A stretch of 47,530 bases of DNA from Caldisericia bacterium (GTDB lineage Bacteria; Caldisericota; Caldisericia; B22-G15): NCBI GenBank assembly GCA_030018355.1, contig JASEFN010000003.1, positions 1 through 47,530 on the forward strand. Direction: 5' to 3'. Position 1 is the stretch's first letter; every line of letters begins with the position of its first letter. Below the pieces are notes generated by a model. The model was given only the letters and a program-made list of their open reading frames with translations, was not told where the DNA came from and ran no database searches. The position numbers and the translations under genes were made by a program. Shown here in pieces: positions 35,502 to 47,530 of the stretch.

Positions 35502-35507
35502 AATTAA

Positions 35508-35513
35508 ATTATA
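35508..35513 (-). promoter_or_regulatory. -10 box of polX (leaderless)
   Basis: A perfect TATAAT on the minus strand (35513-35508) ends 6 nt before the polX ATG (35501). The gap TTAATT has no Shine-Dalgarno, so the transcript probably starts at the start codon. No clear -35 is found at 16-18 nt. Confidence 0.5.
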
Positions 35514-35530
35514 ACTCTTATGTTTATAAC

Positions 35531-35559
35531 TTGATTTTGCTTTTTTTTAAAGATAAAAT
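35531..35559 (+). promoter_or_regulatory. Promoter of the eight-gene sugar operon
   Basis: TTGATT (35531-35536), 17-nt T-rich spacer, TAAAAT (35554-35559): a good sigma-70-type promoter. The predicted start near 35566 gives a leader of about 44 nt with GAGGTGA before the ATG at 35610. No operator palindrome is evident, and no regulator gene lies nearby. Confidence 0.6.
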
Positions 35560-35609
35560 TTTTTTAAATGAAAAAGATAATTTAAAAAATTAAAAAGAGG
35601 TGAATTGAT

Positions 35610-36350
35610 ATGAAAGTGAGTGATTTATTTCCAATTCCAGATTTTTTTGAATTTAATAACTTCTTGGTTTTTGAGCCACATCCAGATGATGCAGATATTT
35701 TTATGGGAGGAGTTATTAAAAAATTGACCCAGATGAATAAAAATTTAATCTTAATAACAGTTACAAATGGTGATAAAGGTACTTATGATCCATCTTTAAG
35801 CGAGATTGAGTTAAAAGCAATAAGAAAAGAAGAGAGGTTAAGAGCAAATGAAATTCTCGGAATTAAAAATTTAATTTTCCTTGATTATTCAGATTATGAT
35901 CTTCCAGAAAAAAAGATTCTTGTAAAAGAGTTTTTAAAAATTATAAGAGAATTAAAACCAGAAGTTGTTTTTACTCCTGATCCAAATCTTCCATATGAGG
36001 TTCATCCTGATCATAAACTTGTTGGTGAAGCAGTTAGTGAAGCATTTTTCTTTTCTTCATTACCACTTGTCATGAGTGAAAAAGATCCACATTATGTAAA
36101 TTTAATATCCTATTACATAACTCCATATCCAAATAAATTTATTGATATAACAGATACCTTTGAAACTAAACTTAAAAGTATAAGAGAACATAAGAGTCAA
36201 TTTAATGATGAAAATTTTAAAAAGATGGAGATTTATTTAAGGTTAAAAAATGGTGAATATGGAGAAAAAATTGGTGTATCCTTTGCTGAAGCATTTAAGG
36301 TTTTTACACCTTTACATTTACATACAAATGTTGATTCAATAAATCTTTGA
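35610..36350 (+). CDS. PIG-L (LmbE)-family deacetylase
   Basis: A 246-residue zinc-dependent deacetylase of the LmbE/PIG-L family. The metal and catalytic motif PHPDDAD is near residue 28, and the second motif, VHPDHKLVGEAV, near residue 131 supplies the third ligand. The family removes acetyl groups from N-acetylglucosamine units, as in MshB, BshB and archaeal diacetylchitobiose deacetylase. No signal peptide is seen, so it acts in the cytoplasm. As first gene of a sugar operon it may deacetylate an imported N-acetyl sugar. It overlaps the next frame's upstream TTG, but the next ATG begins 8 nt after its stop. Confidence 0.85.
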   Translation: MKVSDLFPIPDFFEFNNFLVFEPHPDDADIFMGGVIKKLTQMNKNLILITVTNGDKGTYDPSLSEIELKAIRKEERLRANEILGIKNLIFLDYSDYDLPEKKILVKEFLKIIRELKPEVVFTPDPNLPYEVHPDHKLVGEAVSEAFFFSSLPLVMSEKDPHYVNLISYYITPYPNKFIDITDTFETKLKSIREHKSQFNDENFKKMEIYLRLKNGEYGEKIGVSFAEAFKVFTPLHLHTNVDSINL

Positions 36351-36358
36351 GGAATTTT

Positions 36359-37360
36359 ATGTCAAATTATGAATACATTCTTGAAGAAATAAAAAGAGTT
36401 CCAGAGGATATCGAAGAAATACTTATTTCATTTAAAGATTATGATTTTAAAGAAATTATGTTTAATAATATTCTTTTCCTTGGTACAGGGGGTGGATCAA
36501 GAGCATCATTTGATGTTCTTTTAACATATCTTTTTGATAAATCACCATATCCAATTTTTATACATCAAGGATATGAAATCCCAAGTTTTGTAAATGAAAA
36601 AACTCTTGTTTTTTCTGTTTCATATTCAGGTGAAACTGAGGAAACAATTTCATCAACTCTTGAAGCATTAAAAAAGACAAAAAACATTTTTATTTTAACT
36701 AAAGGAGGCTTTTTAGAAAAACTTGCAAAAGAAAAGAGACTCTTTTTTATAAAGTTAAAGGATGGATATGAGGCAAGACATGCTTTGCATTTAATATTTT
36801 TCTCAATTTTAAAAATTCTCTCTCACTACCTTCATTTAAATTTAGATGATGAAATTATTGATACTATAAGAACTTTAAAGGAGATAAAAAAGAAATCTCA
36901 TGAAGATATTAGAAAAATAGTTGATGAGATTAAAGGAAAAATTCCATTTATATATGGAAGTTATCTTTTCTCAGATTCTCTTTCAGAAAGATTAAGGAGG
37001 CAATTAAATGAAAATGGAAAAACTCTTTCTCATTCAAATATTGTTCCATCGCTTCATCATGATGAGATTGTTGGATTTATGGATAACTCCTTGTCTCAAA
37101 AAGTTTTTGTTATTTTAATAAGAGATTTATATGAAGATGAGAAAATAAATAAAAGATTTGAAATAACAAAAAAGGTCCTTGAAAGTTATGGATTTAAATA
37201 TTATGAAATTTATCCTGAAAATAGCCTTTATAAACTTTCGAGAATGTTTTCAATTATATATAAAATAGATTTAATATCATTAGAATTTGCTAAAATAAGA
37301 GATTTTGATCCAAAAGATGTAAAAATAATTGAATATCTAAAGGAGTTAATGAAAAAATGA
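36359..37360 (+). CDS. SIS-domain sugar isomerase, PGI/PMI-like
   Basis: A 333-residue double-SIS protein. The start is the ATG at 36359, 5 nt after GAGGA. The first SIS domain has LGTGGGSRASFDVLL and VSYSGETEETISSTLEAL. The second carries LNENGKTLSHSNIVPSLHHD with EIVGF, closely resembling the Asn-Glu-Asn and His active-site block of bifunctional phosphoglucose/phosphomannose isomerases of archaea and thermophiles. An alternative is an SIS-type glucosamine-6-phosphate deaminase, given the deacetylase before it and kinase after it. Overlaps the kinase gene by 4 nt. Confidence 0.75.
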   Translation: MSNYEYILEEIKRVPEDIEEILISFKDYDFKEIMFNNILFLGTGGGSRASFDVLLTYLFDKSPYPIFIHQGYEIPSFVNEKTLVFSVSYSGETEETISSTLEALKKTKNIFILTKGGFLEKLAKEKRLFFIKLKDGYEARHALHLIFFSILKILSHYLHLNLDDEIIDTIRTLKEIKKKSHEDIRKIVDEIKGKIPFIYGSYLFSDSLSERLRRQLNENGKTLSHSNIVPSLHHDEIVGFMDNSLSQKVFVILIRDLYEDEKINKRFEITKKVLESYGFKYYEIYPENSLYKLSRMFSIIYKIDLISLEFAKIRDFDPKDVKIIEYLKELMKK

Positions 37361-38319
37361 GAGAGTATTCTGTGGGAATTGATATAGGTGGAACAAAAAT
37401 TTTAATGGTTTTAATTGATGAAGACGGGAAAATTTATAAAAAAGGTTTTCTAAAAATTGGAAACACAGATGAGGGTGACAGAATTTTAAATGATATAAAA
37501 AAAGTTTTCCTTTCTTTAATTGAAGGTTTTGAAATTAAATCAATTGGTGTAGGTTGTGCTGGATTTATAGATTATAAAAGTGGATTTGTTAAAAAATCAC
37601 CAAATATAAACTTTTTAGTCGATTATCCACTTAAAGAAGTTCTTGAAAGGACTCTTAATTATCCAGTTTTCATAGATAATGACGTTAAAATGGGTGCTAT
37701 TGGAGAAATGTTTTTTGGTGAAGGTAAAGATAGTGAATTTTTTATTTTTATTACTTTGGGCACTGGAATTGGTGGAGCATTAGTTTATAAAAATAAAATC
37801 TTAAGAGGTATGAATAATCTTGCAGGAGAAATAGGTCATATTACTCTTGATAAAGAAGGTGTACTTTGTGGCTGTGGAAAAAAGGGTTGTTTTGAAAAAT
37901 TATCTTCTGGCGGTGCAATAAGAGATTATGTTATTTATGGTTTAAAAATGGGTAGAGAATCAAAAATTTTAGAGAGAGTTAATTTTAATATTGAAAAAAT
38001 TGATACACCATTAATTATGGATCTTGCATTTGAAGGAGATTCTCTATGTGTAGAGGCAGTAAAAAATGCCACCTTTTATATAGGGTTAGTTACTTCATAT
38101 TTAATAAATATTTTAAATCCAGAAAAAATAATTTTTGGTGGAGGGCTAACTTATGGATTAGGATTTTTCTTTGATGATATAATAAAAATTTCTCAACTTT
38201 ATTCTTTAAAACTCCCTTTTGAGAATACCAAAATTTTAAAATCAAAACTTAAAGAAGATGCGATCTCCATTGGTGCAGCAATTTATAGTTTAAAAAAATT
38301 AAGAGGTGAAGAGATATGA
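37357..38319 (+). CDS. ROK-family sugar kinase (glucokinase-like)
   Basis: A 320-residue ROK kinase. It has the phosphate loop GIDIGGTKI (7-15), the catalytic aspartate D109 in FIDNDVKMGAIGE, TLGTGIGGALV, the GEIGH motif with H161, and the ROK zinc cysteines C171, C173 and C178 (CGCGKKGCFE). No DNA-binding domain precedes it, so it is an enzyme and not a repressor. Likely substrates are glucose, mannose or an amino sugar. It overlaps both neighbours by 4 nt. Confidence 0.9.
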   Translation: MREYSVGIDIGGTKILMVLIDEDGKIYKKGFLKIGNTDEGDRILNDIKKVFLSLIEGFEIKSIGVGCAGFIDYKSGFVKKSPNINFLVDYPLKEVLERTLNYPVFIDNDVKMGAIGEMFFGEGKDSEFFIFITLGTGIGGALVYKNKILRGMNNLAGEIGHITLDKEGVLCGCGKKGCFEKLSSGGAIRDYVIYGLKMGRESKILERVNFNIEKIDTPLIMDLAFEGDSLCVEAVKNATFYIGLVTSYLINILNPEKIIFGGGLTYGLGFFFDDIIKISQLYSLKLPFENTKILKSKLKEDAISIGAAIYSLKKLRGEEI

Positions 38320-40577
38320 ATATTTTTTTAAAGAAAATTTTAAAAATTTTAAAATTAAAAAATTTAGAACCCTATCTTGAATCACTTTTATCAATGGGAA
38401 GAAAAAGTGAAGTTACATTTCCAAATGAACTTGTTCCATTAAATTTAGAAATTCTTTTAAAAGGACTTTTGACAAGTAGAGTGTTTGAGATAAATTCAAA
38501 TTGGATTTATCCATATTGGATTGAAGAACAATTAAACCCAAAAAGCAATTCTTTTGTTGCAAGAGGAGCAAATATTTTTGCAATAAATATAACTCATAGA
38601 AATTGGACAATTCTTGGATTTCCAGAAGGAAATGAAAAAGGGGTTATTGATGAAAAAGGGTTAATTTCACCAAGACAAAATTTTCCTTCACTTGATATTT
38701 TTATTAAAAAGGATGAAAATCTTTTCTTTCCATCAAGAGAAAAGATTAAACAAAAATTTGATACAGAAACTTCATTAATCACCACTTCTTATAAAAGTGA
38801 AGATTTTGAATACAATTTAAAATCTTTTTCAAGTGTGAGAGATTTTGGAATATATTTAAATTTTTATATAAAAACAAAGGTAAAAGGAAAATATAAAATT
38901 TATTTTCTCGTGAGACCATTTAATCCTGAATCATTTGTTCCAATTTTTTCACTTGAATTTAAAAATGAGAAACTATATGTTAATAATAGAATATTTTCAA
39001 TTCCTATAACAGAGGGTTTTAATAAAATAATCTTTAAAGAAGAGAAGGATATCATTGATCATGAAATATTAAATGAAGATAAAGCAAAATCAAAGTATGG
39101 TATGTTAACAGGTGGATACTATTATGAATTAAATTTAAATGAAAATGATGAAAAAGAGATTGAACTTTTTTTGCCTCAAGAGGATTATTATAAAGTAAAT
39201 AATTTTTATGAATCACTAAACTTCAATAAAAGATTTTATGAGAAAGAAAAAGAAGACGAATTAAAAATTTTTTTACCAGATAAAAAAATAAATGAGATAT
39301 TCAATTCAAATAAAATTTACCTTAAATCTTTAATCTCAAATAATTTAATAACACCAGGGCCACTTACTTATAAAAGATTTTGGTTTAGAGACAGTGCTTA
39401 TATGATTTCTGCACTCTCAAAAATTGGAGATTTTTCTAGAAGTAAAAATTTGCTCAAAGAATTTCCTAAAAAGCAAAAGAAAAATGGATACTTTATTTCA
39501 CAAAATGGTGAATGGGATTCTAATGGAGAAGCAATTTTTGCAATTGTTGAATATTATAGATTCTCAAAAGATAAAGATTTTTTAAATGATATATATAATT
39601 CTATATACAAAGGCGCTCTTTGGATTGAAAAGAAAAGAAAAAAATTTAAAGAGTCAAAAGGCCTTCTTCCACCTGGTTTTTCTGCAGAACACTTTGGTCC
39701 AAATGATCTTTATTATTATGATGACTATTTTGGATTAAGAGGTCTCCTTGATGCATCTTTTACATCTAAAGAGTTGGGTTTAAAAGAGAACGAAAAAAAA
39801 TTTTACTATTTTTATGAAGATTTTAAAAAAAGCATAAGAGAGGCAATTGAAGATGATCAAAAAAGATTAAATAAAAAAGTTGTTTTAGGTGCTTATGGTA
39901 GGGGTATTGATGCTTCTATGATAGCAACATTTACATCTATCTTTCCATTAAGATTAGATCTTTTAACAAAAGAGGAGATTTTAAATACGTATTATGTTTT
40001 AAAAGAAAAATTTTTTGAAAAAGGTTGTTTTTATCAAAATATAACACACTCAGGAATCAACCTGTATCTTACTCTTGAGATTGCAAATTCTCTTTTGTAT
40101 CTTGAAGAGTGTGATGAAGCAAAAAAACTTTTTAAAAATGTAATAAGTCTTTTAAAGCCAACTTATACAGGACCTGAAGGAATTAATCCTAAAACACTTG
40201 GTGGATGTGAAGGAGATGGACATCATGGATGGCTTGTTGCAGAAATTTTGCATTTTATAAGAAATTCAATTGTTTTTGAAAAAGAAAAAGATATTTATCT
40301 TTTTTCAGGTGCATTTCCAGATTGGTTTGAAAATGGAAATGAAATTTCCTTTTTAGATGGACCAACCTATTTTGGAAAATTATCATTTAATATGAAAGTA
40401 AATGGTAATTTAATCGAAATTAACTTTTTATCAGACTTCGACAAAGAATTAGAAAATATTGTGTTATTTTTCCCAATTGATATTGAGAGGATCATTGAGG
40501 GAGATTTCAAAAAAAGAGAGAAAAATAAATTTATTTTTAGTAAAAAAAATAAAAAAATAGTTATTGAAAGGAGGTAA
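38316..40577 (+). CDS. Six-hairpin glycosidase-like protein
   Basis: A 753-residue protein without a signal peptide. Residues about 30-310 look like a beta-rich domain. From about 325 to 660 an (alpha/alpha)6 domain is suggested by KRFWFRDSAYMISAL (354-367), EWDSNGEAIFAIVEYYR (399-415), GFSAEHFGPNDLYYYDDYF (454-472), YGRGIDASMIATF and GCEGDGHHGWLVAEIL. These resemble glucoamylase/trehalase-clan enzymes, with several acidic candidates for catalysis (E399, D401, E458, D469/D470). A short beta domain ends it. I cannot assign a CAZy family. Its place in the operon supports cytoplasmic oligosaccharide cleavage. Confidence 0.65.
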   Translation: MNIFLKKILKILKLKNLEPYLESLLSMGRKSEVTFPNELVPLNLEILLKGLLTSRVFEINSNWIYPYWIEEQLNPKSNSFVARGANIFAINITHRNWTILGFPEGNEKGVIDEKGLISPRQNFPSLDIFIKKDENLFFPSREKIKQKFDTETSLITTSYKSEDFEYNLKSFSSVRDFGIYLNFYIKTKVKGKYKIYFLVRPFNPESFVPIFSLEFKNEKLYVNNRIFSIPITEGFNKIIFKEEKDIIDHEILNEDKAKSKYGMLTGGYYYELNLNENDEKEIELFLPQEDYYKVNNFYESLNFNKRFYEKEKEDELKIFLPDKKINEIFNSNKIYLKSLISNNLITPGPLTYKRFWFRDSAYMISALSKIGDFSRSKNLLKEFPKKQKKNGYFISQNGEWDSNGEAIFAIVEYYRFSKDKDFLNDIYNSIYKGALWIEKKRKKFKESKGLLPPGFSAEHFGPNDLYYYDDYFGLRGLLDASFTSKELGLKENEKKFYYFYEDFKKSIREAIEDDQKRLNKKVVLGAYGRGIDASMIATFTSIFPLRLDLLTKEEILNTYYVLKEKFFEKGCFYQNITHSGINLYLTLEIANSLLYLEECDEAKKLFKNVISLLKPTYTGPEGINPKTLGGCEGDGHHGWLVAEILHFIRNSIVFEKEKDIYLFSGAFPDWFENGNEISFLDGPTYFGKLSFNMKVNGNLIEINFLSDFDKELENIVLFFPIDIERIIEGDFKKREKNKFIFSKKNKKIVIERR

Positions 40578-40583
40578 GAGAGG

Positions 40584-41933
40584 GTGAGGTTTTTTGAAAG
40601 AATTGGTCTTGATGAAGTCTATTCATTTAAAAAGGGAGTTCTCGCTCTTTTTGTGCTTCTTCTTTTGACAGGAATTATTCTTTATGCAGATCAAAATGTA
40701 ATGTCTCCAAGTATTGAATTTATTGAGAAAGAATTTAGAATAGGAGATAAAGAGATAGGAATTGTTGGTTCTGCTTTTACTCTTGTTGCTGCAGTTGTAA
40801 CTTTGCTTTGGGGTTATTTAACTGACAAATTTTCAAGAAAAACACTTCTTGTTATTGCGATTCTTTTAGGTGAAATACCATGTTTTCTTACTGCATTTGC
40901 AAGAGGTTATAAAGAACTTCTAATTTTAAGAGTTTTAACTGGAATAGGAATTGGAGGCACTGTTCCTATAGCATTTTCTCTTGTCGGAGATCTTTTTACT
41001 GAAAAACAGAGACCTCGTGCACAAGCATGGTATGATGCTATTACAGCAATAGGAATAATTATTGGAATGGTTGTCGCAGGCTTCCTTGCCCCAGTTTATG
41101 GTTGGAGGATACCTTTTATTGTTGTATCTTTTCCTAATTTCTTTTTTGCTTTAGGAATGATTATTTTTGGAAGAGAACCTGAAAGAGGCGCTGGAGAACA
41201 AGAGATAAAAGATCTTGTACTGGGTGGTAAAAAATATAAGGGAACACTTACTTTAAAAGACTATATTAGTTTAGTTAAAATACCAACAAATGTATGGTTA
41301 TTCATTCAAGGAATACCTGGTACTGTGGCTTGGGGGATAATTCCATTTTATTTGATAACCTTTTACTTTAGACACAAACACTACCCAATTCAACTTGGAA
41401 CAATTCTTTTGATTATTTTAGGTCTTGGAACAATTGCTGGAAAATTTGTGGGTGGATATATTGGAAATAGGTTGTATTTGAAGAAAAGAGCATACCTTCC
41501 AATTTTATGTGGTTTATCACAATTAATTGGTGTTATTCCTGTTCTTATAACTCTATTTTGGCCTGGAAAAGTAAATCCATCATTTTTAGATATACTTCCT
41601 CCGAGTTTATTTGGATTTATTGGAGCATTTTTTATCTCTTTTGCAGGTCCAAATGTAAAAGCAATGCTTATGAATGTTAATGTTCCAGAACATCGGGGAG
41701 CGATATCCTCAATTTTTAATTTAACAGATTCAATTGGAGCGGGATTTGGTCCTTTTGTTGGTGGTTTAATCTCTTCAATTTCTTCATTAGATACCGCTAT
41801 GAAAGTTTCTGCCCTTTTCTGGATTCCTTGTGGAATTCTTTTCTTTGTTGTTGCGTTATTTATTCATAATGATGTTGAAAAAGTAAGAAAGAAAATGGAA
41901 TCTATAAGAGATGAAATGATGAAAAATGAATGA
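40584..41933 (+). CDS. MFS transporter, Spinster-like
   Basis: A 449-residue major facilitator with twelve hydrophobic helices. Typical motifs are the loop 2-3 segment GYLTDKFSRKTLL and LRVLTGIGIGGTVPIAFSLV in helix 4-5. It begins at a GTG after AAAGGAGGTAAGAGAG. The adjacent GH36, GH1 and kinase genes make a sugar or glycoside the likely substrate, by context only. No ABC or PTS component lies in the operon. It overlaps the GH36 gene by 8 nt. Confidence 0.85.
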   Translation: MRFFERIGLDEVYSFKKGVLALFVLLLLTGIILYADQNVMSPSIEFIEKEFRIGDKEIGIVGSAFTLVAAVVTLLWGYLTDKFSRKTLLVIAILLGEIPCFLTAFARGYKELLILRVLTGIGIGGTVPIAFSLVGDLFTEKQRPRAQAWYDAITAIGIIIGMVVAGFLAPVYGWRIPFIVVSFPNFFFALGMIIFGREPERGAGEQEIKDLVLGGKKYKGTLTLKDYISLVKIPTNVWLFIQGIPGTVAWGIIPFYLITFYFRHKHYPIQLGTILLIILGLGTIAGKFVGGYIGNRLYLKKRAYLPILCGLSQLIGVIPVLITLFWPGKVNPSFLDILPPSLFGFIGAFFISFAGPNVKAMLMNVNVPEHRGAISSIFNLTDSIGAGFGPFVGGLISSISSLDTAMKVSALFWIPCGILFFVVALFIHNDVEKVRKKMESIRDEMMKNE

Positions 41934-43563
41934 ATTTGATATCTCTTTTGAAAAAATTGAAATAGAATCAGAAGAAAAACATATTTTCTTTGAAAAAGAG
42001 AAAGAATTTTCACTCTTTGACTACAAATTGAGTTCTTTTTTGGATCTCTATTTTAAGCCAAAAAAGAAAATTTTTATTAAAAAGATATCTATAACTTATA
42101 AAGTTAACAAACCTGAATCTTATTTTGTTTTTAGAAATGGTTTTCAATCTTGGTCACCTTCTCACTTTTTTAAAAATGAAATAAAAGAGAGGTCACCCCT
42201 TTTCAAAATTTTAAAATATCACTATCTTGATCCAGAAAATTTATTTCCAACTATAAGTTATATTTTTACAATTTTAAAAGGAAACTTCACTTATCTTATT
42301 TTTAAATGTGAAGATCCAAATTTTTATGTCTATTTTGTTATAAATAAAAGAAAAATAGATATTGTATTCGAAATTGATAAATTTTTGTCTGAACCTCTTT
42401 TACTCAGAATTAAAATTGAGGAGACAAATAGTATATCTTTTGATCAAAATTTTAATAAAAAAATTTATGGGTGGACATCTTGGTATTACTATTATAGAAA
42501 TATAAATAAAGAGGAAATTTTTAAAAATATAGATGCAATAGAAAACATTCCGTTTAAACTTAACTATTTTCAAATTGATGATGGATGGCAAAAAAGTATT
42601 GGTGATTGGGAAGAGAATGAAAAATTTAAAGGTTCGCTTAAAGAAATATGTGACAAATTAAATAATAAAAATATTTCACCTGGTATATGGCTTGCTCCTT
42701 TTATAGTTGAGAAAAATTCATCCATATTTAAAAGGAGAAAAGACCTTCTTTTAAAAGACAAATCTGGAAAAATTTTTCCATGTGGTTTTAATCCGTTATG
42801 GAGTGGGTATTTTTATCCTCTTGATATTGAAAAGGAAGAAGTTTATGAAAGAATTTTAAACATTTTAAAAAATTTAAAAGAAATTGGTTTTAAACTTTTT
42901 AAACTTGATTTTCTTTATGGAGGATTTATAAAAGGAGAACATGAAAATTCAAGATATGAAAGATTCATTAATTTTATAAATGAAATTAGAAAGGAACTAA
43001 AAGAATCAATAATACTTGCATGTGGTGCACCATATATTTTAAAAGAGAATCTTTATGATATTTTAAGAGTTGGTCCAGATACTATGGATGGATGGAAAAA
43101 TATCTTTTTAAGATTTATTGGATTTGAGGGTAGAGTTGAAGGATATAACTCTTTGAGAAACACAATTCAAAGGAATATTTTTTCTCCTCAAAAATTTCTT
43201 TTTGATCCTGATGTGATATTTTTAAAACCAAAAAAACTTAACTTATTCGAAAAAGAAACAATAATTATAGTAAATTACCTTCTTTCAAACATAATTTTCT
43301 TTTCTGATCCAATTTATAATTTAAAAAGAGACGATTTTAATTTACTTAAGATATTAAATGAAATAGGAAACTATTATTTAACTGATTTTGATTTTCAAGA
43401 TGATCTTTATAAATTTGTTTTTTATGGGGAGAAACTTAAATTCTCTCTTTTTGTAAATCTCTCTAACAAATTAAAGAAAATTGAAAATTATAAAGAGGAG
43501 TTTATTAAAAAAAGAGATGATAACTTAATTTACCCTCATGAGTCAAGGATTTTTTTAATATGA
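41926..43563 (+). CDS. Alpha-galactosidase, GH36 family
   Basis: A 545-residue enzyme of the compact GH36 type, near the 552 residues of the Thermotoga maritima enzyme. An N-terminal beta domain (1 to about 175) precedes the TIM barrel. Motifs: WTSWYYYYRNI (183-193), FQIDDGWQ (215-222), GIWLAPF, the nucleophile D328 in FKLDFLYGG, and the acid/base D385 in RVGPDTMDGW. It cleaves terminal alpha-1,6-galactose from melibiose, raffinose or galactomannan fragments. No signal peptide, so it is cytoplasmic. It overlaps the PfkB gene by 4 nt. Confidence 0.9.
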   Translation: MNEFDISFEKIEIESEEKHIFFEKEKEFSLFDYKLSSFLDLYFKPKKKIFIKKISITYKVNKPESYFVFRNGFQSWSPSHFFKNEIKERSPLFKILKYHYLDPENLFPTISYIFTILKGNFTYLIFKCEDPNFYVYFVINKRKIDIVFEIDKFLSEPLLLRIKIEETNSISFDQNFNKKIYGWTSWYYYYRNINKEEIFKNIDAIENIPFKLNYFQIDDGWQKSIGDWEENEKFKGSLKEICDKLNNKNISPGIWLAPFIVEKNSSIFKRRKDLLLKDKSGKIFPCGFNPLWSGYFYPLDIEKEEVYERILNILKNLKEIGFKLFKLDFLYGGFIKGEHENSRYERFINFINEIRKELKESIILACGAPYILKENLYDILRVGPDTMDGWKNIFLRFIGFEGRVEGYNSLRNTIQRNIFSPQKFLFDPDVIFLKPKKLNLFEKETIIIVNYLLSNIIFFSDPIYNLKRDDFNLLKILNEIGNYYLTDFDFQDDLYKFVFYGEKLKFSLFVNLSNKLKKIENYKEEFIKKRDDNLIYPHESRIFLI

Positions 43564-44483
43564 TACTAATAATTACATTTAATCTTGCAATTGATAAAGT
43601 TTTATTTGTCGATGAATTTAAACCTTTTAGTGAAAATAGAGTTAAGGTTTTATCCTCACTTCCAGGAGGGAAAGGGGTTAATGTTGCAAGATGTTTAAGA
43701 TCTCTCTATAAAACCTCCACTATTGCAGGTTTTATTGGAGGATATAATGGCGGTTTTATTAAAGAAGGTTTGAAAAAAGAAAAAATAGGGAGTATTCTTG
43801 TTGAAATTGAGAATGAAAATCGAATTTGCAATATTTTACTTGATAGTAGTGGTAAAATTACTGAAATATATGAAGTGGGGCCAGAAATAAAAGAAGAAAA
43901 AGTTCAAGAGTTAATTAATGAGATTAAAAAAAGAGAGGAGAGTTTTCAGTATATTGTTATTTCAGGAAGTATTCCTAAAGGGATAAATGAAAATCATATT
44001 TTTGAAATTCTTGAAATTTTTAAAGATAGAAAAATCTTTCTTGATATACATGGAGAAATTTTAATCAAAATTCTTGAAAAATTTGAAATATTTTTCTTGA
44101 AAATAAATGAAAATGAATTTAAAAAAACTTTTAATGCTTCTTTATTAAGTAAAAATTTATTGATTAATATTTTTAAAAATTATAAAATTTGTCTTCCAGT
44201 AATAACTCTTGGTGAAAAGGGAGCAATATTTTTATATAAAGAAAATTTATATAAAATAACTACAGATTATAAAGTTAAAATTGTTAATCCAGTTGGAGCG
44301 GGTGATTCTTTTATGGGTGGTTTTGTTTATGGAATAGATGAAGGAATGAATATTTTTGATGCTTTAAAATATGGAACATCAGCATCAATAAGTAATCTTT
44401 CTTTTTTTGAAGGAGGAAAAGTTAATAAAGAAGATATTGAAAATATTTTTAATAAGATAAATATATTATTAATGGAGGAGTAA
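43560..44483 (+). CDS. PfkB-family sugar-phosphate kinase (1-phosphofructokinase/LacC-like)
   Basis: A 307-residue kinase with LPGGKGVNVARCL (36-44 core) and the C-terminal PfkB signature NPVGAGDSFMGGF with catalytic D249. The opening ITFNLAIDKVLFVDEF is typical of the 1-phosphofructokinase and tagatose-6-phosphate kinase branch. Beside an alpha-galactosidase, a LacC-like role in galactose use is possible, but no lacAB or lacD gene is present. It follows GH36 with a 4-nt overlap and precedes GH1 by 3 nt. Confidence 0.85.
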   Translation: MILIITFNLAIDKVLFVDEFKPFSENRVKVLSSLPGGKGVNVARCLRSLYKTSTIAGFIGGYNGGFIKEGLKKEKIGSILVEIENENRICNILLDSSGKITEIYEVGPEIKEEKVQELINEIKKREESFQYIVISGSIPKGINENHIFEILEIFKDRKIFLDIHGEILIKILEKFEIFFLKINENEFKKTFNASLLSKNLLINIFKNYKICLPVITLGEKGAIFLYKENLYKITTDYKVKIVNPVGAGDSFMGGFVYGIDEGMNIFDALKYGTSASISNLSFFEGGKVNKEDIENIFNKINILLMEE

Positions 44484-44486
44484 GTT

Positions 44487-45710
44487 ATGAAGAATTTTTT
44501 ATGGGGTACTGCTACTTCAAGTCATCAGGTTGAGGGTGGAAATTTTAATAATGATTGGTGGTTATGGGAAAAATTGGGAAAAATCAAAACAAATGATTCC
44601 TCTCATCCATCATGTGATCATTACCATCTTTATAAAGATGATTTTAAATTAATTAAATTTTTAAATAACAATGCTTATAGGTTTTCAATTGAATGGTCAA
44701 GAATAGAACCAGAAGAAGGAAAATTTGATGAAAAAGAAATAGAACACTATATTGATATGCTTGAAGAATTAAGAAAATTAAATATAGAACCCATTTTAAC
44801 TCTTCATCACTTTACAATACCAATTTGGTTTTACAACAAAGGAAGTTTTTTAAATGAAGAATCACCAAAAATTTTCTCAAGATTTGTTAAAAAAGTTATA
44901 CCTTATTTTAAAAATTATGTAAGATATTGGATAACAATAAATGAACCACTTGTGCTCGCTGTTTTAGGATATATTTTTGGTTGGTGGCCACCTGGAATGA
45001 AAAGTTTCAAATTGGGTTTAAAGGTTGCAAGAAACTTAATTCTTTCACATATGGAAGCGTATAAGATAATTAAAGAGGAAGACGAAAGTTCTATGGTTTC
45101 AATTGCTCATAATATGGAGCTTTTTTATCCGGCTTCTAACTTCTTTTTAGATAAAATTGTCGCAAATTACATAAGCGATCTTTATAATTACAAAATTTTA
45201 GATTCTCTAATTGAGGGAGTCATTAAAAAACCATTTGGAAAAGATGAGGTGATTTCTGATTTAAAAAATTCTCTTGATTTTATTGGAGTAAATTATTATA
45301 CAAGAGCATTTGTCAAATATCACCCATTTAAAATTTTTGCAGAGAAAAAAAGAAAAAATGCGATTTTAACAGATTTTGGTTATGAATATTATCCAGAGGG
45401 GATTTATGAAATACTGATGAATTTGAAAAAATATAATAAAAAAATATTAATAACTGAACATGGAATTGCAGATAGAGAGGATAAATTGAGAAAGGATTTT
45501 CTTATAAAAGCAATTGATTCTGTTAAAAAGGCAAAGAATGAGGGAGTTCAAGTTTTTGGCTATATGTACTGGTCTTTAATGGACAATTTTGAGTGGATTG
45601 AAGGATATTCAATGAAATTTGGTCTTTTTGAAGTTGATTTTAAAACACTTGAAAGAAAACCAAGAGAAAGTGCTTATCTTTACAGAGATCTATGCTCTAA
45701 AGAAATTTAA
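44487..45710 (+). CDS. Beta-glycosidase, GH1 family
   Basis: A 407-residue GH1 enzyme, slightly short for the family. It opens FLWGTATSSHQVEG, has HHFTIP, the acid/base E153 in TINEPL and the nucleophile E324 in ITEHG (histidine in place of the usual asparagine). The aglycone region SLMDNFEWIEGYSMKFGLFE lacks the phosphate-binding Ser-Lys-Tyr pattern of 6-phospho-beta-glycosidases, so plain beta-glucosides or galactosides are expected. No signal peptide. It is the last gene of the operon and is followed directly by a terminator. Confidence 0.92.
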   Translation: MKNFLWGTATSSHQVEGGNFNNDWWLWEKLGKIKTNDSSHPSCDHYHLYKDDFKLIKFLNNNAYRFSIEWSRIEPEEGKFDEKEIEHYIDMLEELRKLNIEPILTLHHFTIPIWFYNKGSFLNEESPKIFSRFVKKVIPYFKNYVRYWITINEPLVLAVLGYIFGWWPPGMKSFKLGLKVARNLILSHMEAYKIIKEEDESSMVSIAHNMELFYPASNFFLDKIVANYISDLYNYKILDSLIEGVIKKPFGKDEVISDLKNSLDFIGVNYYTRAFVKYHPFKIFAEKKRKNAILTDFGYEYYPEGIYEILMNLKKYNKKILITEHGIADREDKLRKDFLIKAIDSVKKAKNEGVQVFGYMYWSLMDNFEWIEGYSMKFGLFEVDFKTLERKPRESAYLYRDLCSKEI

Positions 45711-45734
45711 AAGGGAGGAAAGTATCCTCCCTTT
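45710..45734. terminator. Bidirectional intrinsic terminator
   Basis: AAAGGGAGGA (45710-45719), a 5-nt loop AAGTA, and TCCTCCCTTT (45725-45734) form a perfect 10-bp stem. T-rich tracts follow on both strands. It starts at the last base of the GH1 stop codon and lies 8 nt before the stop of the convergent minus-strand gene, so it can serve both. Confidence 0.85.
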
Positions 45735-45742
45735 AATAAATT

Positions 45743-47530
45743 TTATTCCCCAGGATAAGTAATCTTTACTACTTTAAGATTTGGATCCCAATCAACTTTA
45801 CACCCAAGATTTTCTGCAATGAATCTAACAGGAAGCATTGTCCTTCCAGAGATAATCATTGGTACTACCTTTGGATTACCTGGATCTATTTGTTTATCAA
45901 CTCCATTCACTCTTGCAATATTTTTCCCTATCCAGAGTTCAATTACAATACCTTTTAGACTAACAGTTACCTTTTTTTCTACTCCATCCCAACCAACAGT
46001 TGCACCTAATGGTTCTGCAATCCATCTTATTGGTAAAAGAGTTCTTCCTTCAACTATTAAAGGTGGTACATCTATCTCTTTTGGTTCACCGTTAATGTAC
46101 ATAATTTTGTTTCCTATTTGAAGTTTTAAAATAATCTTTTCTATTTCAATATATTTATATAAATAACCATAAAATGAACCAGCGTATATATTTTTTGAAT
46201 TATTAATATCAATGGCTAATCTTCTTATATTTAAATCAACTAAGCCTTCATTGATCGAATTCCATGAATTTCCACTATCAGTAGATTTAAAAATACCACT
46301 ATATGAACAAGCATAAATTATATTTGTATTTTGTTGATCAATTTCAATAGATAAAAAATAATTATTTTTCATTAAACCATTACCAACTTCAATCCAATTT
46401 TCTCCTCCATCAATTGATTTGAATACAGTAGTAGAGCCAGCATATAAAATATTATTATTTTTAGGATCTATTTTTATTACATAAAAATTTAAATTTGTTA
46501 ATCCATTATTTTTAGAGATCCAATTTTCACCGCCATCAATAGATTTGAAAATTCCATTTTTTGTTGCAACATATATGATATTGCTATTATTATAATCAAT
46601 TGCAATATTATAAATATATTTATCACTTAAACCATTTGTTATATCAATCCATGTGTTGCAACCATCTGTTGATTTGTATATTTTAAAAGGATTTATTGCA
46701 TATATAGTATTGCTATTTTTAGGATCGTATATTAACATGGTTATATAATTACTTAATTTTTTACTATCAACTTTAATCCAAGTTTCTCCTCCATCAATAG
46801 ATTTATGAATATAATTCCATGTTCCAACCAACAGAGTGTTATTGACAGGATCAACAGCAATTGTTTGAATTTGTTCATTATTTAAACCTTCTCTTTTTTC
46901 AAACCAATTTCTTCCTCCATCATATGATTTATAGAAACCGCTTTCTGTGCCTAAATATATAATATTGCTATCTTTTGGGTCAACTTTTATAGAATTGATT
47001 GTAGGTCCAAATATTCCTTTATTAATTTTTAACCAATTTAAACCATAATCAATTGATTTATAAACGCCACACCCTGTTGCAGCATAAATTATATTATTAT
47101 TTTCCTTATTGATACTAATTTTAAAAATATTAAAACATGATAATCCATTGATAATCTTTTTCCAATTTTCTCCACTGTCATTACTTTTATAATAACCACC
47201 ATTTGTTGCAAGGTATATAAGATTTGTATCCTTTTCATCAATAGAAATACAATTTATTTTATAACCCATTAAACCAATTGACTTATTTTCCCATTTTTCT
47301 CCTTCATCTACTGACTTATAAACATGTAAATTTGTACCGATGTAAATAATTTTCGTGTTCTTTGGATCAATTGCAATAGTATTAATTATCAGATCTGTAA
47401 GACCAGAATTTTTTTCTTGCCAACTTTCTCCTCCATCAATAGACTTAAAAATTCCATTATCAGTTGCAACATAGATTAAATTACTATTTGTGGGGCTAAT
47501 TTTAATATCATTTATATTTAAATTAGTCAA
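45743..47530 (-). CDS. Beta-propeller repeat protein with two stalk domains (5' end outside window)
   Basis: The last 595 residues of a gene whose start lies beyond the window. Residues 1 to about 467 are eleven repeats of about 43 residues with the pattern I-x-I-D-P-x-N-x-N-x-I-Y followed by G-x-[FY]-K-S-x-D-G-G-x-x-W (BNR/sortilin-like beta-propeller blades). Residues about 468-595 are two copper-amine-oxidase N-terminal-like stalk domains, each with V-x-G-R-T-x-L-P-[IV]-R-[FW]-I-A-E. Such proteins are usually exported and bind surfaces or glycans. The leading TTG at the window edge lies mid-repeat and is not the true start. Function unknown. Confidence 0.8.
   Translation of the reverse strand: MTNLNINDIKISPTNSNLIYVATDNGIFKSIDGGESWQEKNSGLTDLIINTIAIDPKNTKIIYIGTNLHVYKSVDEGEKWENKSIGLMGYKINCISIDEKDTNLIYLATNGGYYKSNDSGENWKKIINGLSCFNIFKISINKENNNIIYAATGCGVYKSIDYGLNWLKINKGIFGPTINSIKVDPKDSNIIYLGTESGFYKSYDGGRNWFEKREGLNNEQIQTIAVDPVNNTLLVGTWNYIHKSIDGGETWIKVDSKKLSNYITMLIYDPKNSNTIYAINPFKIYKSTDGCNTWIDITNGLSDKYIYNIAIDYNNSNIIYVATKNGIFKSIDGGENWISKNNGLTNLNFYVIKIDPKNNNILYAGSTTVFKSIDGGENWIEVGNGLMKNNYFLSIEIDQQNTNIIYACSYSGIFKSTDSGNSWNSINEGLVDLNIRRLAIDINNSKNIYAGSFYGYLYKYIEIEKIILKLQIGNKIMYINGEPKEIDVPPLIVEGRTLLPIRWIAEPLGATVGWDGVEKKVTVSLKGIVIELWIGKNIARVNGVDKQIDPGNPKVVPMIISGRTMLPVRFIAENLGCKVDWDPNLKVVKITYPGE
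45817..46143 (-). repeat. Two tandem stalk (Cu-amine-oxidase N-like) domain repeats
   Basis: Two copies of the segment ending GRTLLPIRWIAEPLG and GRTMLPVRFIAENLG, about 70 residues apart, at the C-terminus of the propeller protein. Each is followed by a V-x-W-D strand (VGWD, VDWD). They are protein-level repeats; the DNA copies have diverged. Confidence 0.7.
46144..47530 (-). repeat. Eleven propeller-blade repeats of about 129 bp
   Basis: Repeats coding for about 43 residues each, with most copies keeping KS-x-DGG-x-x-W. Some are atypical: copy 4 has DYG, copy 7 has DGC and copy 11 ends in a different strand. They are not identical in DNA, so they are not recent duplications. The series continues past the window end. 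Confidence 0.75.

Follow-up and report, generated by a model that had tools for sequence, protein, structure and literature searches.

How does a bacterium that cleaves galactosides inside the cell use the galactose if its genome encodes no recognizable galactokinase? This question is raised by an operon of eight closely packed genes, positioned on the forward strand (35610–45710) of a 47,530-nt window of Caldisericia bacterium (Caldisericota), which is probably a thermophile, judging by its group. The window, that is, the whole stretch of DNA analyzed, covers positions 1–47,530 of contig JASEFN010000003.1 in assembly GCA_030018355.1 (genome G000 below; 100% complete by the tool's figure). The operon encodes in order a PIG-L deacetylase (Dac), a SIS-fold phosphosugar isomerase, a ROK sugar kinase, a probable six-hairpin glycosidase or phosphorylase, a carrier of the major facilitator superfamily (MFS), a GH36 alpha-galactosidase, a PfkB-family kinase and a GH1 beta-glycosidase. 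A preliminary description of this DNA proposed intracellular glycan breakdown, and the operon and most of that reading hold. It overlooked that the genome has no recognizable galactokinase and that the operon contains a second, diverged isomerase of the phosphoglucose isomerase (PGI) type. What is new relative to it is a bypass of the Leloir pathway, which we suggest tentatively.

The best explanation, in which our confidence falls just short of even, is a galactoside-utilization operon with a ROK-SIS-PfkB galactose route that is independent of the phosphotransferase system (PTS). Small alpha-galactosyl and beta-glycosyl sugars would enter by the MFS carrier and be cleaved inside the cell by GH36 and GH1, while the genus-specific Dac and six-hairpin enzyme may widen the substrate range. 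The ROK kinase would phosphorylate glucose and, most likely, also galactose at C6, giving galactose-6-phosphate, which the diverged SIS isomerase would convert into tagatose-6-phosphate. Carbon flux would then run through PfkB, yielding tagatose-1,6-bisphosphate, to an aldolase encoded elsewhere. Gene order, gene families, conservation, the lack of GalK and the age and divergence of the SIS paralog are observed, whereas the transported sugar, the substrates of the enzymes and the flux are inferred. The broader proposal, that in several deep lineages of thermophiles the Leloir pathway is replaced by a PTS-free tagatose-6-phosphate pathway built of ROK, PfkB and a SIS protein derived from PGI and phosphomannose isomerase (PMI), is possible and somewhat doubtful.

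Conservation of the Cluster and Distribution of Galactokinase

Within the genus, G001 and G003 also have all eight genes in this order, and G002 has seven of them before its contig ends, so the operon is not a chance arrangement. The MFS, GH36 and GH1 genes stand together in 11 genomes, comprising G000–G003 and seven outside the genus (G022, G049, G051, G053, G061, G062 and G063); co-occurrence in relatives, which the preliminary description had named as a check, is thus found in 10 other genomes. PfkB and ROK accompany the three genes in five of the seven outside clusters, and SIS in two of these five (G051 and G053). In G063 and G022, the clusters lack ROK and PfkB and have GalT and GalK alongside. 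In G064, the MFS gene lies between GalT and GalK and is separated from GalT by a gene for a pyridoxal-phosphate-dependent decarboxylase; this 505-aa gene had been considered as a GH36 and was rejected. The GalT and GalK genes beside or flanking the MFS gene indicate that the cargo of the cluster yields galactose. The Dac and six-hairpin genes are in no cluster outside the genus. Of 61 genomes, four have the six-hairpin protein, and these four belong to the window's genus; in the sister genus (G004), neither the MFS nor the six-hairpin protein had a match.

The galactokinase family PF10509 (GalK) has no match in G000, nor in any of the nine genomes whose cluster includes ROK and PfkB (G000–G003, G049, G051, G053, G061 and G062). 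The six other traced genomes with an MFS relative (G022 and G063–G067), which were chosen by their MFS matches, all have it, three of them near the MFS gene. Over 23 genomes, GalT has two copies in exactly these six, one copy in 15 and none in two. The single GalT of G000 and its housekeeping SIS are located in an apparent glycogen cluster (L165:558-13312), which also contains glycogen-synthase-like and phosphoglucomutase-like genes, their families being read by eye.

A genome of the Coprothermobacteraceae (locus L032:10001-14244) has an MFS protein 69% identical to that of the window, slightly closer than those of other families in the window's own phylum (62–68%), a sign that the cluster may have been transferred laterally. 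Among the viral contigs searched, no relative of the window's MFS protein was found.

The Operonic SIS Isomerase Is an Old, Diverged Paralog

G000–G003, G051 and G053 each encode two SIS proteins of the PGI/PMI type, of which one is operonic and the other lies outside the operon; G002 has a third, partial match, and G004 has only the non-operonic kind. PGI of family PF00342 is not found in G000–G004. The window's SIS protein falls under all NCBIfam PGI/PMI equivalog cut-offs (243.7 against 471, 227.7 against 254 and 208.7 against 213.9 bits), as does that of G051, while the housekeeping SIS of G000 passes two of them (280.6 against 254 and 270.6 against 213.9). A phmmer search of the window's SIS against the PDB gave no match at 1e-3. 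The operonic SIS proteins form one clade with support of 100/100, and a recent duplication within this family is rejected by the approximately unbiased test (p-AU 7e-9), with long branches flagged in the tree. Relative to the housekeeping PGI/PMI, the operonic SIS is an ancient paralog.

The two kinds have the fold of bifunctional PGI/PMI (bact-PGI_C SIS) in common, and the operonic proteins retain its Ser, Arg, Glu and His positions (Ser51, Arg144, Glu222 and His238). The site of PGI/PMI contains a ring-opening histidine and three serines that hold the phosphate (PMC3755991). Eight residues are common to all six operonic SIS proteins and absent from nine housekeeping or outside PGI/PMIs, namely Thr47, Gly48, Arg52, Ala143, His237, Asp239, Pro290 and Phe320. 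Six of them flank the GGS loop and the conserved Arg144 and His238: Gly48 is inserted and Arg52 is new at the loop, Ala143 replaces Pro beside Arg144, and His237 and Asp239 enclose His238. Since conserved columns cluster near active sites anyway, these residues point to a specialized enzyme and do not tell its substrate.

The known galactose-6-phosphate isomerase, LacAB, has an RpiB fold (PMC3755991). Only one protein of the corresponding family, PF02502, is present in G000. LacAB was also considered as the general missing isomerase and rejected, because PF02502 counts are two in G061, three partial or full in G049 and one in G062; one of the two proteins of G061 lies on a small contig with no sugar genes in view.

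The Operonic Kinases

All nine genomes searched for phosphofructokinase (PF00365) have it, which makes the operonic PfkB dispensable for fructose-6-phosphate; given the second SIS elsewhere, both the SIS and the PfkB of the operon seem to be additional copies. The PfkB protein scores 220.7 bits with TIGR03168 (cut-off 216.4), and its PDB matches to FruK and LacC are far above those to Pfk-2. In a tree made with annotated coordinates, from which a ribokinase-like kinase adjoining a ROK gene (L094) was left out, the nine operonic PfkBs group with LacC and with the kinase of a galactitol/tagatose-bisphosphate operon (support 90/89). The gene of the latter kinase adjoins those of galactitol-1-phosphate dehydrogenase and tagatose-bisphosphate aldolase. 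As to a FruK role, the phylogeny is compatible with it and the cluster has no fructose PTS gene.

Apart from the operonic ROK, no clear ROK kinase match is present in G000–G003, G051, G053, G061 and G062. Being the sole clear ROK and bearing no special signature, it would have to act on glucose and galactose alike. The ROK tree was built without locus L116, which gave no blastp match.

Gene Organization and Hydrolases

The features of the operon are listed in Table 1. The preliminary description of eight genes closed by a terminator is borne out by the gene calls, the hairpin and the same order in relatives; terminator-like sites number 8 in the scan, compared with 3.6 ± 2.2 in shuffles. Its single promoter is unconfirmed: a candidate in the gap between PolX and Dac matches the promoter pattern at 9 of 12 positions, but the scan found 55 sites of such quality where shuffles give 71.8, fewer than chance. 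Overlaps of 4–12 nt had been stated for most junctions; five of the seven do overlap (4, 4, 4, 8 and 4 nt in the gene calls), and at the other two the genes are 6 and 3 nt apart. As called, the SIS gene starts at TTG, and its relatives start at an ATG 12 nt downstream, so the first junction (Dac-SIS) is probably a short gap. An Rfam search of the window gave no matches. Beyond the terminator, a reverse-strand gene (45743–47530) encodes a repeat protein that scores 196.5 bits with the NCBIfam F510_1955 glycosylhydrolase type; G001, G002 and G003 have partly similar proteins in this position (34–66% in partial alignment).

Table 1. Coordinates of the eight operon genes and flanking elements in the window.
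Feature	Position	Strand	Evidence
Divergent, AT-rich intergenic region between PolX (-) and the operon	35502-35609		Putative promoter 35531-35559 (+), scan not above chance
Dac: PIG-L deacetylase, diacetylchitobiose-deacetylase-like	35610-36350	+	PF02585 1.4e-31
SIS-fold phosphosugar isomerase, diverged PGI/PMI paralog; proposed galactose-6-phosphate isomerase	36347-37360	+	PF10432 2.5e-36
ROK sugar kinase	37357-38319	+	PF00480 7.4e-61
Probable six-hairpin glycosidase or phosphorylase	38316-40577	+	Weak TIGR01577, Pfam and Foldseek matches
MFS carrier, proposed galactoside importer, GTG start	40584-41933	+	PF07690 2.2e-54; gene context
GH36 alpha-galactosidase, compact Thermotoga/Thermus type	41926-43563	+	PDB 6lcj 7.3e-45, 1zy9 1.4e-44
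PfkB-family kinase, hexose-phosphate (FruK/LacC) group; proposed tagatose-6-phosphate kinase	43560-44483	+	TIGR03168
GH1 beta-glycosidase, non-phospho type by motif	44487-45710	+	PF00232 7.6e-87
Intrinsic terminator-like hairpin	45710-45734	+	Found on both strands

Domain scans confirm seven of the gene families named earlier, and the label of the six-hairpin protein is weakly supported. This protein has no Pfam match at 1e-3 and matches TIGR01577 at 1.7e-7, with weak GH95, GH78 or GH15 matches in some homologs. Its predicted model (pLDDT 51; four homologs) gave Foldseek matches to GH94, GH95 and GH116, which are weak but concordant with Pfam, and the product is probably a six-hairpin glycosidase or phosphorylase, a class marked by an (alpha/alpha)6 barrel.

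The GH36 protein aligns with alpha-galactosidases of Thermotoga and Thermus; in the alignment to 1zy9 and 5m0x, both catalytic Asp positions match, one in a K-x-D-[FY] and one in an R-[IV]-G-x-D motif; they are kept in all 11 cluster GH36s. All 11 operon-type GH1s have the acid/base motif NEP, the nucleophile motif TE[HNS]G and the non-phospho loop NFEW. Two distant GH1s beside MFS genes (G066 and G067) both keep NEP and one has SENG, one of the two genes being cut by the contig end. Consistent with the earlier statement that the hydrolases lack signal peptides, a crude hydropathy scan found no signal-like N-terminal hydrophobic stretch. The Dac protein has the PHPDD and HPDH motifs of a deacetylase (its relative in G001 has PHSDD), and its nearest solved PIG-L relatives are Dac proteins (3wl4, 8.3e-54; 8bgn, 1.2e-53).

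The MFS Carrier and Its Cargo

Because Leloir genes stand beside the cluster in other genomes and galactose is its likely product, the MFS protein is most likely a galactoside importer, a cargo read from gene context. Its predicted model has a pLDDT of 87. Structure comparison gave Z scores of 43.0 for G6PT, 41.8 for SotB and 41.0 for Spns2, which lie within 2 Z units and do not discriminate; LacY-type carriers are not among the 50 matches listed, which is uninformative on kinship. Relatives of ~41% identity in metagenome-assembled genomes of Caldiserica (L024:9589-10887, L025:8696-9994 and L040:2777-4075) adjoin a conserved 344-aa gene. They stand alone, no glycosidase being seen nearby, so the MFS family probably has other cargos too.

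The import and intracellular cleavage of sugars with alpha-galactosyl and beta-linked units by one functional module, as proposed earlier, is supported by the cluster co-occurrence and the Leloir neighbors. That the cargo is one intact heterogeneous glycan does not follow, as the hydrolases might act on distinct small sugars, galactosides on the one hand and glucosides on the other. The suggested N-acetylated component is weaker, for it rests on Dac, which is absent from clusters outside the genus; Dac may add N-acetylhexosamines to the cargo in the window's genus. Nor is an MFS carrier unusual for such sugars, since MFS carriers of di- and oligosaccharides such as LacY, RafB and CscB are not rare.

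Weighing the Proposed Galactose Route Against Other Explanations

Several results weigh against the galactose route. GalK is also absent from all eight further genomes, none of which has the MFS-GH36-GH1 group (G014 has an MFS protein of 63% identity standing alone, and G029 and G035 have MFS proteins of ~41%), so its absence is the background in the phylum, and the independent contrasts in GalK amount to about three lineages against three. No PF10432 isomerase is found in the genomes G049, G061 and G062, whose clusters include ROK and PfkB; G062 has a single PF02502 protein. The operonic ROKs fall among the ordinary ROK kinases of the phylum and show no specificity signature. The approximately unbiased test does not reject a tree in which the PfkBs group with FruK of Gram-positive bacteria (p-AU 0.113), and the operonic PfkBs share six columns with LacC and six with FruK, giving no specificity signal; two by-eye motif resemblances to LacC were dropped after this count. 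The LacC-model scores, 137.2 bits for the window's kinase and 145.6, are far under the TIGR01231 cut-off of 409.55, compared with 464.4 and 613 for annotated LacC. Class II aldolases (PF01116) were not found in G000–G004, the class I families, including the LacD type that could act on tagatose-bisphosphate, not having been searched, and another aldolase type must serve glycolysis there. Finally, the best full-length solved relatives of the MFS protein are the spinster (SPNS1/2) lipid carriers.

An explanation plainer than the galactose bypass, which we hold to be rather unlikely, is that the two kinases and the isomerase do no more than pass glucose (or mannose) on to glycolysis, with ROK as glucokinase, SIS as a second PGI/PMI and PfkB as a second phosphofructokinase. 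Galactose would then be excreted, or handled by an unrecognized kinase or an oxidative route. The general absence of GalK in the phylum and the ordinary grouping of ROK, the sole clear ROK in G000–G003, fit this explanation, as does the retention of the shared Glu222, His238 and Arg144 in SIS. However, SIS and PfkB would duplicate housekeeping enzymes, SIS no longer carries the equivalog signature and has acquired conserved changes at its active site, and the clusters without these extra genes are exactly those where GalK and GalT occur.

A glycolipid headgroup or lyso-glycolipid (e.g., alpha-Gal-beta-Gal-glycerol from digalactosyl lipids), imported by a spinster-like MFS and cleaved by GH36 and then GH1, is an improbable cargo, and one that would be compatible with either fate of galactose. 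The pair of GH36 and GH1 fits the alpha and beta linkages of a digalactosyl lipid headgroup, and the nearest solved structure of the GH1 is 1vff (5e-99, 335.5 bits; next 311.7 bits), an enzyme that presumably favors alkyl glycosides. The spinster relatives of the MFS protein also fit such a cargo, and a grouping with lipid carriers, which the preliminary description had named as evidence against its view, is partly seen. However, the identity to spinsters is only 20–22%, neither a lipase nor a glycerol gene was noticed in the clusters, GH13 or free-galactose genes are present in some of them instead, and the gene context points to galactosides.

An amino-sugar operon, in which Dac deacetylates N-acetylglucosamine or N-acetylgalactosamine, ROK phosphorylates the amine and SIS is a deaminase/isomerase, is modeled on the archaeal Dac-GlmD chitin route and agrees with the Dac relatives of the first gene, but it is very improbable, as the GlmD match of SIS (25.3 bits) is far under the cut-off of 580 and the SIS paralog is also found in the G051 and G053 clusters without Dac.

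Comparison With Known Systems

The proposed PTS-free galactose route would have the intermediates of the Gram-positive LacABCD tagatose-6-phosphate pathway, galactose-6-phosphate, tagatose-6-phosphate and tagatose-1,6-bisphosphate, and its PfkB-family kinase is near LacC. It would differ in entry by MFS instead of PTS, in the phosphorylation of free galactose by an ATP-dependent ROK and in a SIS/PGI-type isomerase in place of LacAB; no LacD was identified, class I not having been searched. The Leloir clusters of G063 and G022 combine a homologous carrier and hydrolases in one cluster, as here, but have GalK and GalT, whereas G000 lacks PF10509 and its operon has ROK-SIS-PfkB. The thermococcal chitin route likewise joins a Dac-type deacetylase to a SIS protein (GlmD) and a kinase, but Dac is here a genus-level addition and SIS is PGI/PMI-like, not GlmD.

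The yih cassette of Escherichia coli is proposed to serve also for lactose, its galactose following a tagatose-like route without PTS (PMC5816610). The operon resembles it in the set of hydrolase, isomerase, kinase and transporter as well as in the suggested route, whereas yih uses other enzyme families, includes an aldolase and has sulphoquinovose as its main role. A literature search, with most subscription papers outside its reach, found no ROK-SIS-PfkB galactose route, and we do not claim that it is unpublished.

Significance

Galactoside-cleaving genomes without a galactokinase are a standing gap in pathway reconstruction, and the missing galactose kinase of seven Firmicutes genomes is described as an open problem in PMC5583593. 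The three-gene set with its defined isomerase paralog offers a directly testable candidate for filling this gap. If the proposed route is true, the operonic SIS would represent a new fold family for galactose-6-phosphate isomerization beside LacAB, and would provide a heat-stable enzyme for tagatose production.

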